Of a stretch of DNA of 64,000 nt, positions 50,841-62,819 are shown piece by piece (the first letter of the stretch is position 1; every line of letters begins with the position of its first letter). The DNA is taken from assembly GCA_905235685.1 (NCBI GenBank), contig CAJOMO010000005.1, positions 1 to 64,000 of the forward strand, read 5' to 3'. The notes under the pieces are model-generated. The model saw nothing but the letters and a program-made list of their open reading frames with translations. It was not told the DNA's origin and made no database searches. The position numbers and the translations under genes are program-made. This stretch comes from an uncultured Selenomonadaceae bacterium (GTDB lineage Bacteria > Bacillota > Negativicutes > Selenomonadales > Selenomonadaceae).

Positions 50841-52220
50841 TTACCTGTCATAGTTATCATAGTAATAATTTTCGCGGCGGTCGCTGTAATTTGACGGGTT
50901 ATCGTAGTAATAATTTTCGCGGCGGTCGTCATAATTCGAGTCGTAATTTCTGCGCGGCGTCGGCGAAATTTCTTCCGGCTCGTCATAATAGTTTTCGTCG
51001 CGGCGGCTGTCTTCGTAATAATTTTCGTCACGGCGATTGTCTTGTTCGTCGTAATAATTATCTTCGCGGTGGTTTTCTTCGTCGTAATTATCTTCGCGGT
51101 GGTTTTCTTCGTCGTAATTATCTTCGCGGCGGCTGTCGTCTTCGTAGTCAAAATTTGGCGGATAATCCCTTGTTGGCTCGCCGATATTTTCAGCGTCGTC
51201 TGGAATTTTTTTCGCGTTGGTAGGAATTGACTCGTTGTATTCGCTGGCAACTCTTTCGACGCGGCTTTTTATGCGATTGTCAACCGAAACGTCCAAGAGT
51301 TGAGCCATGGCGTATTGCAATTCGTCAACGTACGGTATCCAATAGCTTATCTCGTCAATGTAAAGCGGATAGCCAGGAACCATATCAGTTTCAAGCCCGT
51401 TTTGCTGAGCCGCCTTCATAGCTCCGGCTAATTCCAAAAGTTGGCGGAAAGTCATATCGGTATCGATAGCGTCAACCACTTCGCGCAGGACTGACGGAAT
51501 ACGCGGAATAAACGACGGCGAAGTAACTTTTTCCAAACACGCCTCAATAAATTTTTGCTGGCGTTTAATTCGTCCGATATCGCCTTCAGAATCGCGGTAT
51601 CGAACGTAAGTCACAGCTTTTTTGCCGTCCATGTGCTGAAGTCCGGGATAAATATTAATGTACAGCCCGCCGTTATCGTCCCAGGGGTCTTCGTACTTCA
51701 TGCGCTTTTCCACGTCAATGTCAATGCCGCCGATAGCGTCAATAATTTTAACAAAGCTGTTGGTGTTGATAATCACGTAATGATCGATATCGATTCCGAG
51801 AAAATTTTCAACGGTTTTTTCGGCAAGAGGCTCGCCGCCGTAAGCATAAGCCGCATTGATTTTATCGTAGCCGTAGCCATAAATCCGGACGCGCGTATCT
51901 CGCGGTATCGACATAAGCGCCGCCTGATCGTATTTCGGATCAACCATCGCAATCATCATTGTATCGGAGCGCCCAACGTCATCTTCGCGCATATCCACGC
52001 CCATTATCAGAATCGTGGATTTATCCTTAGCCTTGATTAATTCGGTATCGAAATTCATTCGGTCGATTTGCTGAATCGGTTCTTTTTTTAAATCGAAAAG
52101 GCTTGACGACGCCAAAAGTGAGCCTGCCGCCGCCGAAGCAAAGAAACACAGCACTAATAAAATTATGGGCCAAATGCGCCGCTTAGTCTTTCGACGGGAC
52201 GGCAGATTTTCATTTTCCAA
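50841..52220 (-). CDS. LytR-CpsA-Psr family protein with a Tyr/Asp/Arg-rich repeat tail
   Basis: LCP enzymes join polyprenyl-linked glycans to the cell wall. This 459 aa protein has a cytoplasmic basic start (SRRKTKRR), one membrane helix (about 14-38) and the LCP catalytic domain (about 65-235) with LIMGVDMREDDVGRSDTMMI, SIPRDTRVRI, INAAYAYGG, KKAVTYVRYRDSEGDIGRIKRQQ. A C-terminal region of about 115 residues is made of Tyr, Asp, Glu, Asn and Arg in repeats such as REDNYDEENH. The TTG at 52218-52220 follows GGTGGGG and is preferred to a TTG at 52244 that lies inside the previous gene's end. Confidence 0.92.
   Translation of the reverse strand: MENENLPSRRKTKRRIWPIILLVLCFFASAAAGSLLASSSLFDLKKEPIQQIDRMNFDTELIKAKDKSTILIMGVDMREDDVGRSDTMMIAMVDPKYDQAALMSIPRDTRVRIYGYGYDKINAAYAYGGEPLAEKTVENFLGIDIDHYVIINTNSFVKIIDAIGGIDIDVEKRMKYEDPWDDNGGLYINIYPGLQHMDGKKAVTYVRYRDSEGDIGRIKRQQKFIEACLEKVTSPSFIPRIPSVLREVVDAIDTDMTFRQLLELAGAMKAAQQNGLETDMVPGYPLYIDEISYWIPYVDELQYAMAQLLDVSVDNRIKSRVERVASEYNESIPTNAKKIPDDAENIGEPTRDYPPNFDYEDDSRREDNYDEENHREDNYDEENHREDNYYDEQDNRRDENYYEDSRRDENYYDEPEEISPTPRRNYDSNYDDRRENYYYDNPSNYSDRRENYYYDNYDR
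51061..51120. repeat. 30-bp tandem repeat in the LCP gene tail
   Basis: Two perfect 30-bp units (51061-51090 and 51091-51120) sit in a longer run of imperfect units reaching about 50840-51160. Being a multiple of three, unit gain or loss would lengthen or shorten the tail without a frameshift. Confidence 0.85.
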
Positions 52221-52237
52221 GGAATCCCCACCTTGCT

Positions 52238-53239
52238 TTAACAATAAAAAATTCTATCTTCGAGCGCCGAAATAATTTCCACGTCAGTATCGTACAAATG
52301 GCTCAAACATTCCAGCGTCACCATTTCGCGGGTAGTGATAAAATGCGTCGCCTGTCTAAGATTTTGCGGAGTAAAATCCAGTTTCAAAATATTTTCGCCG
52401 AGAAATTCATTGAGCGCCTTCAAATCTTTAGCGCGGAATTTTTTATCCGGAAAAATAATCAGCAGCGCATTTTTTAAATCTGCGCGATTAAATTCAGCGA
52501 TAATTTTTTTCCACAGCGGAATTTTCGCGCCAAAATCCGCCACCAATGCATAAATTTTCCAACCGGCTTTACGCTTGGCAATTATTTCAGAATCGGCGGC
52601 AGTTTCAATTTCCGGCGCGTAATGTTTAGCTAAAAATTTTTCGGTGTCGTAAATCAGCGGCAGATTTTTATAAATTTTTTTAATGCTCCAATTCCACCAC
52701 TTAACCGCCATAAATTTTTTAATCGTCGCGGCGTCGAATCGATATTTGACAATTCGCGCAGGATTCCCGACAACCACCGCGTAAGGCGGAACATTTTTAG
52801 TAACCATGGCGTTCGTGCCGATAATCGCGCCGTCGCCAATCCGCACGCCGCCAATAATCGTCGCGCCCTGCCCAATCCAAACGTCATTGCCCACGATAAT
52901 TTGATAATGATTGTCGCAACGCCGCTCTTCCGGCTCATAATTCGGCGCGGTGATTTTCGCGCCTGCACAAATTTTTTCCATAACAAAATCCACGTCGAAC
53001 GGATAAGTCGTAACCACATTTTTATAATTGTGATTGAGCCCGAGCAGAAATGAAGTATCGCGCGCAATCGAACAGAAACGCCCGATTAAAACGTGCGCGG
53101 TTTTATTCCACTCAACGACGCTGTCAATGGCGTAGGAACAAGCGCCGAGCGTCAGAAACGGGAAAATTTTTTTATTCAGCAAATGGGTATAGGGGCGGTC
53201 GATTGGCACAAAGCTATCGTCAGAAAACGGGACGCGCAT
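52238..53239 (-). CDS. CatB-like hexapeptide acetyltransferase with an extra C-terminal domain
   Basis: A 333 aa protein. Residues about 30-205 form a left-handed beta-helix acetyltransferase of the xenobiotic/VatD type: IGRFCSIA, HNYKNVVTTYPF, IIVGNDVWIGQGATIIGGVRIGDGAIIGT and YAVVVGNPARIV. Residues about 215-333 are an extension of unknown fold (IYALVADFGAKIPLWKKI, ALLIIFPDKKF). In this surface gene cluster it more likely acetylates a glycan than a drug. The ATG at 53237-53239 has GAGGTG five bases upstream. Confidence 0.86.
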   Translation of the reverse strand: MRVPFSDDSFVPIDRPYTHLLNKKIFPFLTLGACSYAIDSVVEWNKTAHVLIGRFCSIARDTSFLLGLNHNYKNVVTTYPFDVDFVMEKICAGAKITAPNYEPEERRCDNHYQIIVGNDVWIGQGATIIGGVRIGDGAIIGTNAMVTKNVPPYAVVVGNPARIVKYRFDAATIKKFMAVKWWNWSIKKIYKNLPLIYDTEKFLAKHYAPEIETAADSEIIAKRKAGWKIYALVADFGAKIPLWKKIIAEFNRADLKNALLIIFPDKKFRAKDLKALNEFLGENILKLDFTPQNLRQATHFITTREMVTLECLSHLYDTDVEIISALEDRIFYC

Positions 53240-55063: not shown

Positions 55064-55097
55064 GCGCCGCCTTCCAATCAGCGGCGTTAATTTTTTT
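55064..55097. terminator. Bidirectional terminator between the RpiB-like and serpin genes
   Basis: CGCCGC (55065-55070) pairs with GCGGCG (55081-55086) around a ten-base loop. T runs follow on both strands (seven T after 55089 on plus, six T on minus). It serves two convergent genes. Confidence 0.78.
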
Positions 55098-55109: not shown

Positions 55110-56333
55110 TCAAAGTTTGTTGACAGTGCCGGTGAACAAATTAATTTCATTCGGAACATCGCGAATCACGAAAACGAAAGGCATATCTGCGCGAAATTCA
55201 ATAATCTGCTTATATTCCGGCGAAAGTGCGGTTGTCTCAACCATATCAATCTCGGTGACGGCGGCGGCTTCAGTGCCCTGCTCGTCGACTTTGACTTTCG
55301 CCTGGTGAACGGCGGCGTCAATCTTCAAAGAAACGCCGTTGATAATGTTGTAAAATTCGGCGTAATCGGTTAGGGCGAGCTGAATCCCAACCTGCCACAA
55401 TTTTTCCATCAAATCAGTTTTAATGTCAAATTCGAATTTCGGCAAATCCAAATGAATCTCCCTGCCGTTAACCGGCGCGTTTTTAATCTGGTTCAAAAAA
55501 TTTTCGCGGTAGGAAATTTTTTCGGCGTCCCAATCGTCGGCGATATTCAAATTATTTTCGTCAACCGGCAGAATCACGTACATTGCCACGACGGTATCAT
55601 TCGCAGATTTTTTGTACGGCAATTCAATCCCGCGATATTTTTCGTCCGCGTAGTAGGAAATTTCTTCGTCGAAAATTTTGTGCATCATTTCAATCTTTGA
55701 AGTCGAAAAATCCTTGTTGTGGAAAATTCTTTCGCGCGTGTCGTTGGTTTTGAAAGCGCTGTTCCATTCGCCTTTGAAATAAATCACGTTCAGCAAATCG
55801 ACGGCGGTATCTTCCGTGGCGATAGATTGATAATTCGGGATTAAATGATTCGTAACTTTGTCAACCCAGCCGGTGATTTGTTTTTTTGTGGCGGTGATAT
55901 CATTTCGAAAATCGACAAGCGCGACTTCAGAGCCGTAATTTTTCTCGGCATTTTTTTTGAAGCGCAAATTTATTCCGTTGCCGGCGTAATCTTCGTCAAT
56001 GAGCAACAAATTGGATTCGCGCAGAAGCCGCCCGTCAGAATAATTATCAGCCATAGCGCCGTGAAATTTGGCAAAGCCGTCGTTCAATTCTTTCATGGAA
56101 TTGGCGTACAGCACGGCGAGAATTTCCTGCTTAGTTTTTCCAATCGCGCCATTCGCCAAAAGGCTAAGCGCGGCGGCTAAACTGTACGGCGAATAAAAAA
56201 TATTTTCGTCCTTATCGAGCGTCTTATAGTAATTCCAACCAAAATTATTCACGCCGTTGGAAAGTTCGGAGGCAAAAACCGTTGAAACATTCAGCGCGAA
56301 AATCAGCGCAATTATCAGCGTAAAAATTTTCAC
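55110..56333 (-). CDS. Secreted serpin (serine or cysteine protease inhibitor)
   Basis: A 407 aa serpin with a signal peptide (1-21, cleavage near VFA-SEL). The fold's marks are NIFYSPYSLAAALSLLANGA, LLNVIYFKGEW, LDLPKFEFD and the C-terminal ADMPFVFVIRDVPNEINLFTG. The hinge before the reactive loop reads DEQGTEAAAVT, with small residues at P12-P10, the pattern of inhibitory serpins; counting 17 from the hinge Glu puts P1 at about the Thr-Thr pair in MVETTA. It should trap proteases outside the cytoplasm, perhaps those of a host or competitors. Six bases separate it from pnp. Confidence 0.93.
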   Translation of the reverse strand: MKIFTLIIALIFALNVSTVFASELSNGVNNFGWNYYKTLDKDENIFYSPYSLAAALSLLANGAIGKTKQEILAVLYANSMKELNDGFAKFHGAMADNYSDGRLLRESNLLLIDEDYAGNGINLRFKKNAEKNYGSEVALVDFRNDITATKKQITGWVDKVTNHLIPNYQSIATEDTAVDLLNVIYFKGEWNSAFKTNDTRERIFHNKDFSTSKIEMMHKIFDEEISYYADEKYRGIELPYKKSANDTVVAMYVILPVDENNLNIADDWDAEKISYRENFLNQIKNAPVNGREIHLDLPKFEFDIKTDLMEKLWQVGIQLALTDYAEFYNIINGVSLKIDAAVHQAKVKVDEQGTEAAAVTEIDMVETTALSPEYKQIIEFRADMPFVFVIRDVPNEINLFTGTVNKL

Positions 56334-56339
56334 GGCAAA

Positions 56340-58571
56340 TCAAACCTTTCTGCGCGGCGGGCGGTTGCCGTTGCGGTCGTTGTTTTTGTCAAAAGGTTTC
56401 CTGTCAAAAGGTTTCTTGTCAAAGGGTTTCTTATCGCTGCGGCTGTCGAAATTTCTGCGGGCGTTGCGGCTCAAATCGGACGGCGGCAAAGTTGCTTTGT
56501 GGCTTACATTAACGCGCCCCTTTTCGTCAATCTCGACAACTTTAACCGTCAACGTATCGCCAATTTTAACAACGTCCTCGACTTTTTCAACGCGCTCATT
56601 TGCAAGCTGCGAAATATGACAAAGCCCTTCGCGCCCGGGCAACAAGTCAACAAATGCGCCGAAACTTTCAATGCGCGTAACCGGCGCGTTTTCGTAAATT
56701 TCGCCAATTTCAAAATCGTGAATGACATCTTCGATCATCTTGAGCGCGCGCTTAATTCCGTCAACGTCGGTGGAAGTGACGAAAATATTGCCGTCGTCTT
56801 TAATGTCAATCGTAACGCCGGTTTCGTCAATGATTTTGTTAACCATTTTGCCGCCCGTGCCGATAACTTCGCGGATTTTTTCAACGGGAATTTTCATAGT
56901 CATAACGCGCGGCGCATAGGGCGAAAGTTCCGCCGCCGGTTCGCTGATACATTCGAGCATTTTTCCGAGAATAAAACTCCTGCCGCGTTTCGCCTGCGCG
57001 AGGGCGTCGGATAAAATTTCGCGGGTTATACCGGCAATTTTAATATCCATTTGAATAGCAGTGACGCCTTCGGTCGTACCGGCGACTTTGAAGTCCATAT
57101 CGCCCAGCGCGTCCTCTAAGCCCTGTATGTCAGTCAATATGGTATATTTATCGTCAGACTTAACTAAACCCATTGCTACGCCGCTCACAGGGCGCTTAAT
57201 GGGCACGCCAGCCTGCATCAAACTCAAAGTACTGCCGCAAACGCTGCCCATTGAACTTGAGCCGTTCGATTCAAGCACTTCAGAGACGAGGCGGATTGTG
57301 TACGGAAAATCTTCAATCGAAGGAACAACCGGTTCAAGGGCGCGTTCAGCCAAAGCGCCGTGTCCAATTTCACGCCGCCCGGGACTGCGCGAAGGTCTTG
57401 CCTCACCAACCGAAAAGCCGGGGAAATTATAATGGTGCATATAATGTTTGGTATACTCGGGGTCGAGCCCGTCAACAATTTGTTCGTCGCCGATTGAGCC
57501 AAGCGTTGTGATTGTCAAAACTTGCGTCTGCCCGCGCGTAAAAAGTCCCGAGCCGTGCGTTCTTGCGAAAAGTCCAACTTCACAGCTGATTGGGCGCACT
57601 TCCTCAAGTTCCCTGCCGTCGGGACGAATTTTTTCGTGGGTAATCATACGGCGCACAACGTCTTTCTTGACTTTGTAAAAAACTTCGCCAATTTCCTGTT
57701 CGGCGGTAGGGTATTCTTCCGCGGGAAATTTTTCAAGGAGCGCGGCGGTAATTTCTTCCTGTACGGCGTCAATGGCGGCGTCGCGTGCAAGTTTATCGGG
57801 ATTGCGAATGGCGGCGTCAACTTTTTCCGGCGCAATTTCACGCACTGCCGCGTCAATTTCTTCATTCGGGTGGAAAAGCGGATAATCTTTCTTAGGCTTG
57901 CCAACCTGCGCGACAATTTCATTTTGGAAGGCAACGAGTTTCTTAATTTCCTCGTGCCCAAATAAAATCGCCTCAAGTACAACTTCCTCGGGCAATTCTT
58001 TCGCGCCTGCTTCAACCATCATAACCGCGTCAGCCGAACCGGCAACCATCAAATCCAAATCGGAAGTTTCGGCTTGTTCCTGCGTGGGGTTGATAATAAA
58101 TTCGCCGTTAATCCTGCCTACGCGCACGCCCGCAATCGGTCCGTTGAATGGAATATCTGAAATGCAAATCGCGCAGGACGCGCCGAGCATTGCGGGAATT
58201 TCGGGCGCATTATCGGGGTCGTAGCAAATGACGGTTGCGGTAACTTGCACGTCATTTCTAAAACCTTCGGGGAAAAGCGGGCGAATCGGTCTGTCGATTA
58301 AACGGCTGCGCAAAATTCCGCTGGTTTGCGGACGCCCTTCACGTTTCAAAAAACTGCCTGGAATTTTTCCGGACGAATACATTTTTTCTTCGTAGTCCAC
58401 GGTTAGCGGGAAAAAATCTGCGCCTTCACGCGGTTTCGCCGAAGAAGTCACGGCAACCAATACCGCTGTATCGCCGTATCTTACGAGCACCGCGCCGTTC
58501 GCCTGCTTAGCCATTTTGCCCTGTTCGACGATCAATTTTCTGCCGCCAAGATCTGTTTCAAAACAATTCAT
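56340..58571 (-). CDS. pnp: Polyribonucleotide nucleotidyltransferase (PNPase)
   Basis: PNPase degrades RNA 3' to 5' with phosphate and adds tails in the degradosome. The 743 aa protein has two RNase PH domains (the second with [24 protein letters not shown] and the catalytic [22 protein letters not shown]), a KH domain ([20 protein letters not shown]) and an S1 domain ([18 protein letters not shown]). A basic tail with three KPFDK-type five-residue repeats follows. GGAGGC lies ten bases before the ATG. The serpin gene follows closely and might share its transcript. Confidence 0.97.
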
Positions 58572-60774: not shown

Positions 60775-61431
60775 ATGGCAGTAGAAACAATTCCGGTATC
60801 GACGCGCATTTTGACGCCGAAAGATGATATCGTTGACGTTATCGAGAAATACACGAAAAACCGCATTGGACCGGACGACGTCGTGACGGTGGCTGAAAGC
60901 GTCGTTGCGATTACGCAGGGCAATATTATTCGCCCCGACGAAATGCAGATTAGTTTGTTGGCGCGGTTTTGCTGCCGGTTCATTCCGGATTACGGCTCTT
61001 TGGCGACGCCGCACGGTATGCAGGCTCTTATGCGCAAGGAAGGCGAATGGCGCGTAGCATTTGCGCTGTTTGCCGGATTTTTGGGAAAAGTTATCGGGCA
61101 ACGCGGCTTGTTTTATAAATGGGGCGGGCGTCAAGCGGCGCTGATTGACGATGTTACCGGTACAATGCCGCCTTTCGACAAATGCGTTGTTTACGGACCG
61201 GAAAATCCCGAACAGGTTTGCAACGCGCTGAAAGAACGCCTCGGCTGTTTTGGCGCTATGATTGCCGATGTCAACGATTTGAAACGCTCAAGAATTGTTG
61301 GAGCGACGGCGGGTATGAATGCGCAATTGGCAAGCGATTTGTTGATTGATAATCCATTTGGCAACGCGTCAGAGAAACGCCCGATTTGCATTTTGAAAAA
61401 TTTCCGCCAATACCAGGAAAGCCAGCGATGA
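60775..61431 (+). CDS. CofE-like (F420-0:gamma-glutamyl ligase family) protein
   Basis: A 218 aa protein of the family that in methanogens and actinobacteria adds glutamate to coenzyme F420-0. Seen here are [35 protein letters not shown] and the C-terminal [26 protein letters not shown]. No other F420 gene is in the window and this lineage is not known for F420, so it is likely to ligate an amino acid to some other substrate. AAAGGAG is upstream. It is coupled by ATGA to the GH84 gene. Confidence 0.78.
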
Positions 61432-62819
61432 AAAAATTTTTATTGACAATGTTAATGGCGCTTTTAATTTCGGGAACGAGTTTTGCGACGCCAATACCAA
61501 TGCGCGGCGTTATTGAAGGTTTTTATGGCGAGCCGTGGACTTTCGAACAGCGGCTTGACTTGATGAAATTTTGTCGGCTGAATAATTTGAACGCCTACAT
61601 TTACGCGCCGAAAGACGATCCGTATCACCGCGAAAAGTGGCGCGTTGCTTATCCGCCCGAAAAACTTGCTGAGCTTTCTAAATTGGTTGACGCGGCGAAT
61701 CTAAACGGCGTGCGGTTTATTTTCGCAATTTCGCCCGGGCAAACTTTGAATTACTCCGGCGAGAAGGGCGATGCTGACTTCAAAAAAATTCTGCGCAAAA
61801 TCGAATCGGTTTACAAAATCGGCGTGCGCAATTTCGCGATTTTCTTTGACGATTTGAAAGACGAAAACGGCATTCACCACGAGGACGGCAAACTTCAAGC
61901 CGAATTTCTGAACAATTTGCAGGCGGCTCTGCGCGAAAAGCATTATGACATTGAGCCGCTAATCACCGTGCCGACGGAATATTACCGCGCGGATATGCTC
62001 CAAAACGCGAATAATTACACGGCGGATTTTGCGGGCGCGCTGAATAGGCGAATTGTGGTGCTGTACACGGGCGACGGCGTTGTTTGCGACGGTATCACGG
62101 ACGCGGATTTTCAAGCGGCGTGCAAAATTTACGGGCGCGATTTGGGGATTTGGTGGAATTATCCGGTGAACGATTACGCGGTGACGGACGGCGGCGATAA
62201 AAATGCTAAGCTGGCGCTCGGCGCGATTGAAAAATTGCCGACTAAAAATGTTCAAGCGATTTTTTTTAATCCAATGGGGCAATATGAGTTGTCGAAAATC
62301 GCATTGGCTACGGGCGCGGTTTATTCCAATTCGCCGGAAACTTACGACGCGGAAAAATCCTGGGACGCGGCTTTGAAGGCTCAATTCGGCAGATTGACGC
62401 CCGCAATGAAAATTTTTGCAAGCCATTCGCGGCACATGGAAAATTCCTGGGCGAAAGTTGGCGCAGCTGATTCGCCGGAATTTAAAGCGGCGGCGGACGC
62501 GGTTATCCAAAATTTTCTCGAAGGACAAAGATTAGATTCTTATCAACTGTCAAAAATGATAACCGAAATGGAAAAATCCGCCGCGATTTTGCTGAAAAAT
62601 TTACTGCCGGAAATTTTATCGGAATGTCAGCCGCAGCTTGAACAATTTCAAAGAATAGCCGCTGCCGACAGATTGGCGCTGGATTCGCTGATAAACAAAG
62701 CGCTTGACCCGCAATTAAAAATCCTGCGCGAAGAAATTCGACAGCACGAGCCGCGCGCCGTACTTTCGGAAAAATCCGCGCTGAAATTTATTGACGATGT
62801 AATTTTCTTGTTTGACTGA
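61428..62819 (+). CDS. Secreted GH84 beta-N-acetylglucosaminidase
   Basis: A 463 aa exported glycosidase of family GH84 (bacterial O-GlcNAcases / hyaluronidase-like enzymes). After a signal peptide (1-20, ending GTSFA) comes the family start [18 protein letters not shown], then [16 protein letters not shown] and the catalytic Asp pair in [12 protein letters not shown]. The [10 protein letters not shown] stretch is also conserved. The C-terminal 130 residues are helical. It would cut terminal GlcNAc from glycans in the periplasm or outside. The ATG at 61428 overlaps the ligase stop. A secretin gene follows. Confidence 0.88.

Follow-up and report, generated by a model that had tools for sequence, protein, structure and literature searches.

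A serpin gene directly downstream of pnp

In the window (the whole 64,000-nucleotide stretch of DNA that was analysed, from an uncultured gut bacterium belonging to the Selenomonadaceae), an open reading frame encoding 407 amino acids from a GTG start corresponds to a complete serpin, a fresh example of a known family (Table 1). The open reading frame listing returned, to the base, the coordinates given in the initial annotation, and the serpin identity proposed there agrees with both profile and fold. PF00079 matched as a full-length domain (258.8 bits against a cut-off of 27, E 1.2e-76, covering positions 2-369 of the 370-position profile). In the PDB, 195 distinct sequences matched the reading frame at E up to 0.001, with conserpin as the best of them (E 1.3e-43); together, these two values exclude a chance match. 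A search of the NCBIfam models with the same reading frame gave no match. Genome-wide, this is the only serpin in the 1.96 Mb of the organism's own assembly.

Table 1 Features of the serpin locus, with their positions in the window.
Feature	Position	Strand	Basis or remark
Serpin coding sequence	55110..56333	-	PF00079, conserpin match, model superposition on cleaved serpins
Signal peptide, residues 1-21	56271..56333	-	Sequence; likely cleavage between VFA and SE, no lipobox cysteine
Hinge P17-P8, E351-T360 (EQGTEAAAVT)	55254..55283	-	P15-P7 nearly invariant in 32 genus members
Predicted P1-P1' scissile pair, Thr367-Thr368	55230..55235	-	Hinge counting and antitrypsin superposition
Primed side of the reactive loop, A369-R381	55191..55229	-	Longer than in most comparison serpins
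pnp (polynucleotide phosphorylase), upstream neighbour	56340..58571	-	RNase_PH, PNPase, KH and S1 domains
AGAAAGG, ribosome-binding-like site inside the pnp end	56345..56351	-	By eye; 11 nt ahead of the GTG
Intrinsic-terminator-like hairpin behind the serpin gene	55065..55086	-	7-pair stem with 6 GC pairs, then CTTTTTTATT

A gap of only 6 nt separates the end of pnp from the serpin GTG, which suggests that the two genes are carried on one transcript. The hairpin behind the serpin lies where a terminator would be expected; since the region contains 12 terminator-like sites where 9.3 would be expected, it says little by itself. All nine genomes of the group to which the window belongs (see below) have the serpin behind pnp. 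Of the two other groups in the genus, 12 members of the group of 18 carry it within two reading frames of phosphoglucomutase- or phosphoglucose-isomerase-like genes, and in four members of the group of five it adjoins a thioesterase-like gene, these names having been assigned by eye. Since the serpin is sited elsewhere in these groups, the pnp neighbourhood provides no functional clue, and we rejected a functional link to pnp.

In one related genome (G040:C29:35578-37808), the pnp directly upstream of the serpin changes frame near residue 256, through either an assembly error or a frameshift. Two further genes in the window may be mentioned. In a 467-residue reading frame (50841-52244, minus strand), NYDEENHRED-like repeats form a long tail at the C-terminus, and about 5 kb from the serpin lies a beta-N-acetylglucosaminidase (NAGidase) gene (61386-62819, plus strand; PF07555, E 1.1e-95, with NagJ_C). 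NAGidases are known for acting on host glycans, and the gene may fit a mucosal life.

Predicted export to the periplasm

By inspection, the protein starts with a signal peptide, MKIFTLIIALIFALNVSTVFA, followed after the predicted cleavage by SE; its hydrophobic 12-mer has a mean Kyte-Doolittle value of 3.16. A signal peptide was likewise seen in the same reading frame in 30 of the 32 genus members. At one locus (L026, genome G015) a stop codon lies between the signal peptide and the serpin body, indicating a decaying gene or a sequencing error, and at another (L010, genome G016) the reading frame starts without a signal peptide.

The organism encodes an Omp85 protein and hence has an outer membrane, so that the signal peptide alone would place the serpin in the periplasm. 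Neither an outer-membrane export signal nor an anchor signal was seen in the window serpin. The earlier description of the protein as secreted consequently stands for its predicted passage into the periplasm, and nothing was seen that would carry it beyond. The window serpin has no lipobox match; in the genus, a PS51257-like lipobox pattern matched 12 of 32 members, which may be anchored as lipoproteins, although many of the same sites also read as A-x-A signal peptidase I sites. In eight genomes (G008, G014, G021, G023, G026, G028, G037 and G053), Gly/Asp-repeat proteins of a single cluster (up to 2397 residues, RTX-like by eye) are encoded near the serpin as pieces or whole reading frames, either by coincidence or as candidate surface proteins under the serpin's protection.

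Intact hinge and small P1 residue

Inhibitory serpins carry the hinge motif ExGTEAAAA, as outlined in the available extract of PMC8233489, and the window serpin fits this motif from P17 to P9 (EQGTEAAAV) with small residues. Its P9 is Val and not Ala, as in 27 of the 31 genus members that have a residue at this alignment position. Across the 32 genus members, the hinge columns P15-P7 have a mean entropy of 0.21 bits, versus 1.39 for all columns.

Past the hinge, the loop reads E-I-D-M-V-E-T367-T368-A, with MVETTA corresponding to M364-A369. Counting from the hinge yields T367 as P1 and T368 as P1', and superposition agrees: in the rows for 8api and 7api, the last aligned model residue is 345 (T367), facing chain residue 358 of cleaved antitrypsin, which we take to be P1. 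Three proposals of the initial annotation, an intact inhibitory hinge (E351-Q-G-T-E-A-A-A-V-T360), a predicted Thr-Thr scissile pair and a P1 that does not match trypsin-like preference, were all supported, the last of them well beyond this one protein. Counted from P15, P1 in the genus is Thr in 18 members, Ala in nine, Gly in three and Asp in one (n=31; G063, which has lost its hinge, was omitted), and by alignment column the numbers are 17, 10, three and one, such that P1 is small in 30 of the 31 members with a readable hinge. The predicted P1 of the window serpin, T367, is of the small kind associated with elastase-type serpins. Threonine itself is not distinctive, because it occupies P1 in 15 of 37 comparison Bacillota serpins, mostly best-scoring rows of the class and phylum samples and no random draw (the others have Lys in 13, Ser in five, and Glu, Met, Ile and Ala in one each).

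The genus also shares a lengthened loop, with 30-33 residues from P15 to the residue preceding the PF motif in 31 of 32 members (27 in the remaining row, G063 or another), versus 25-30 in 36 of the 37 comparison serpins; only G119, with 32, departs from this. Within the genus, the core of the loop varies little, consisting of Met, Val or Leu, mostly Glu, Thr or Ala, mostly Thr, and Ala. One locus of the same genus (L036, genome G063) has a broken hinge, SEHDTK followed by a deletion, and is probably no longer inhibitory.

Structure model of the mature protein

The model of the mature protein, built from an eight-row alignment, had a mean pLDDT of 80.1; a model from a four-row alignment (pLDDT 34.6) was discarded and supports no conclusion. 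Foldseek matches of the retained model were serpins, and the best superposition was on cleaved equine leucocyte elastase inhibitor (1hle_A; 331 residues aligned with an rmsd of 2.0 and a Z of 37.6), with miropin also among the matches. The modelled chain thus has the serpin fold. Residues 331-344 of the model (P15-P2) are predicted as a strand, corresponding to the relaxed, loop-inserted state, and loop insertion appears plausible for this sequence, the model speaking to fit and not to inhibition.

Selection on the body and the loop

Compared with the nearest relative (G041), the mature protein has a dN of 0.052 and a dS of 0.367, purifying selection that supports a working gene, and in each of the 11 pairs tested the mature protein had a dN below its dS. 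In 10 of the 11 pairs, which are not independent, dN was higher for the segment P6-P12' than for the mature protein; it was lower than dS in all 10 pairs with a computable dS for this segment. We read these sequence comparisons as a loop that probably evolves faster than the body, yet is constrained. Positive selection in the loop was rejected, as dN lies below dS where both are computable, and the values are no proof of an arms race.

Distribution and descent in the genus

Half of the genus carries the serpin (33 of 66 genomes, one copy each), and when only genomes with a completeness of 90% or more and a contamination of 5% or less are counted, it is present in eight of 14 and absent in six. 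In the family, it was found in 34 of 189 genomes, the extra one (G119) belonging to another genus. The class sample contained serpins in 43 of 380 genomes, only 10 of 314 outside the genus, and the phylum sample in 75 of 398. The remark that serpins are uncommon in bacteria is therefore apt for the class outside the genus and loose for the phylum as sampled. A scan of named genomes returned two red deer Selenomonadaceae MAGs, whose best segments were 89% and 68% identical, and as a third match a Syntrophomonadaceae MAG with 28%; the two nearest named relatives are in line with the gut or rumen setting suggested at the outset. A red deer rumen metagenome study is available (PMC7820578, in extract).

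To place the gene, a serpin tree (n=69) included 32 genus members, G119, L033, the five top-ranking serpins from the class sample and the best serpins of the 30 phylum-sample genomes with loci returned, leaving out a fragment (G064). The genus and G119 form one side of a branch with an SH-aLRT of 100 and a long stem, and the genus serpins split into groups of five (support 87), nine (97) and 18 (100). In a PNPase tree covering 60 of the 66 genomes (three without a fetched pnp and three with fewer than 550 residues were omitted), the hosts fell into the same three groups, labelled by hand from the serpin neighbourhoods, with serpin-less genomes interspersed; serpin presence required 12 changes on this tree versus a shuffled mean of 20.2. 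As both trees contain the same three groups, the gene looks old and vertically inherited in the genus. Vertical descent with frequent losses and relocations appears to fit best, although separate gains from close donors may have occurred instead.

A recent phage or plasmid source is not supported, since no close relative was present in IMG/VR or in the phage and plasmid collections. A single-sequence scan of IMG/VR returned no serpin relative and a profile search only four (L171-L174, 26-31% identity), and matches in the phage and plasmid collections were all below 60% identity (26-32% among the matches listed). Two phage- or virus-labelled contigs carry serpin relatives at 26-31% identity (MT835510.1, 32656-33741; MT835777.1, 11160-12194), of which MT835510.1 has no annotation and could be mislabelled bacterial DNA. 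A serpin with 32% identity lies on a 13.7 kb Psychrobacter plasmid (NZ_CP029790.1, 9349-10494), whose listed source is a pure culture from shrimp.

Discussion

The family, the fold, the intact hinge, the insertion-compatible sequence, the signal peptide, purifying selection and the conserved small P1 are shown by the analysis; inhibition, a location beyond the periplasm and the target are inferred. Our preferred reading, to which we assign a probability of roughly 60%, is an exported inhibitory serpin directed against foreign elastase- or subtilisin-like proteases. The pre-protein would cross the inner membrane via its signal peptide, and the serpin would fold to its metastable native state outside that membrane, in the periplasm, perhaps being released further. 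On cleaving the exposed loop, at the Thr367-Thr368 bond or close to it, a protease would become trapped as an acyl-enzyme; at the same time, insertion of the hinge as a strand into sheet A would pull the enzyme to the far pole, where it would be inactivated.

The protease families covered by the search were S8, C1 and Trypsin_2. An own subtilisin or papain was rejected as the target, as neither an S8 (subtilisin-family) nor a C1 (papain-family) protease was found in the organism's own genome; in the genus, S8 proteases occur in three of 66 genomes (G018, G061 and G065), and G018 and G061 also have a serpin. This absence makes a foreign protease of the ruminant gut, from host, protozoa, fungi or bacteria, the likeliest target, and the genus-wide small P1 suggests serine proteases of an elastase-like or subtilisin-like kind. 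In the extracts available, elastases are inhibited by the gut serpin of B. longum (PMC8012564), by the siropins (PMC5127057) and by saburopin (PMC8201313), the latter two being gut bacterial serpins as well. The siropins are cut by elastase at P3-P2 and P6-P5 (PMC5127057, in extract), so a P1 obtained by counting can mislead. Further observations count against the preferred reading: no outer-membrane export signal was seen, though a foreign protease would be met beyond that membrane, the serpin is absent from half of the genus, such that the need for it is not general, and one genus member that has it (G063) no longer has an intact hinge.

A rather unlikely alternative is a broad-spectrum trap resembling miropin, which would offer several bonds in its long loop to serine and cysteine proteases of neighbours and host. 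Miropin inhibits a broad set of proteases, according to the extract of PMC6718151, and is among both the structural matches and the profile-matched PDB sequences of a protein whose primed-side loop is longer than usual; the loop core, however, is narrow and conserved in the genus rather than varied.

We consider it quite unlikely that the serpin stays periplasmic and caps the cell's own periplasm-facing HtrA. The genome encodes one Trypsin_2/HtrA protein, which is probably a lipoprotein (LFGGC) and, on visual inspection, retains its His, Asp and Ser motifs; it may share the serpin's compartment, and the organism has an outer-membrane assembly factor. HtrA prefers small aliphatic P1 residues, which the small P1 residues here would suit, but its oligomeric form and gated active site make it poorly suited to a serpin trap, and Trypsin_2 matches occur in 62 of 66 genus genomes versus 33 with a serpin.

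That the serpin fold serves here without inhibition, in a substrate-type or binding serpin, is very unlikely. Some serpins have diverged from inhibition (PMC8233489, in extract), and G063 of the same genus has a broken hinge; against this, P17-P8 is kept in the window serpin and nearly all of the genus, and in the model the loop forms a strand inserted in the sheet. It is highly improbable that the genus-wide serpin lineage, marked by its longer primed side of the loop and its fixed small P1, restrains the cell's HtrA inside the envelope; this would, if true, be a bacterial serpin whose target lies in the same cell.

The locus extends the exported gut serpins to Selenomonadaceae, which are absent from the five Firmicutes families named in the extract of PMC6718151, a review that also counts rare families, unnamed there. 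In the open-licence part of PubMed Central, titles and abstract openings contained no paper on a Selenomonas, Negativicutes or rumen-bacterial serpin besides those on cellulosomes. As to what bacterial serpins do in their natural setting, a genus divided into halves with and without one provides a natural contrast, in a single lineage congruent with the host phylogeny and having a conserved small P1, for asking which protease pressure selects a serpin.

Among known systems, the best PDB sequence match is conserpin (5cdx, 5cdz). This we take to be an artificial consensus serpin, so that the match reflects generic serpin features and not kinship. Miropin of Tannerella forsythia (5nct, 5ncu, 5ncw) is alike in structure (Z about 36), with about 28% identity to the window serpin, broad inhibition being miropin's feature, and its host has two membranes, as here. 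By contrast, the serpin BL0108, compared by description and not by sequence, comes from a single-membrane host, Bifidobacterium longum being an actinobacterium with one membrane. The siropins of Eubacterium siraeum, as far as their published description extends, are likewise gut Bacillota serpins with an intact hinge; siropin 2 is predicted to be extracellular, and the siropins have neutrophil elastase and proteinase 3 as target enzymes (PMC5127057). Cleavage by these enzymes falls at P3-P2 or P6-P5, whereas the bond predicted for the serpin described here is the Thr-Thr pair at P1-P1'.
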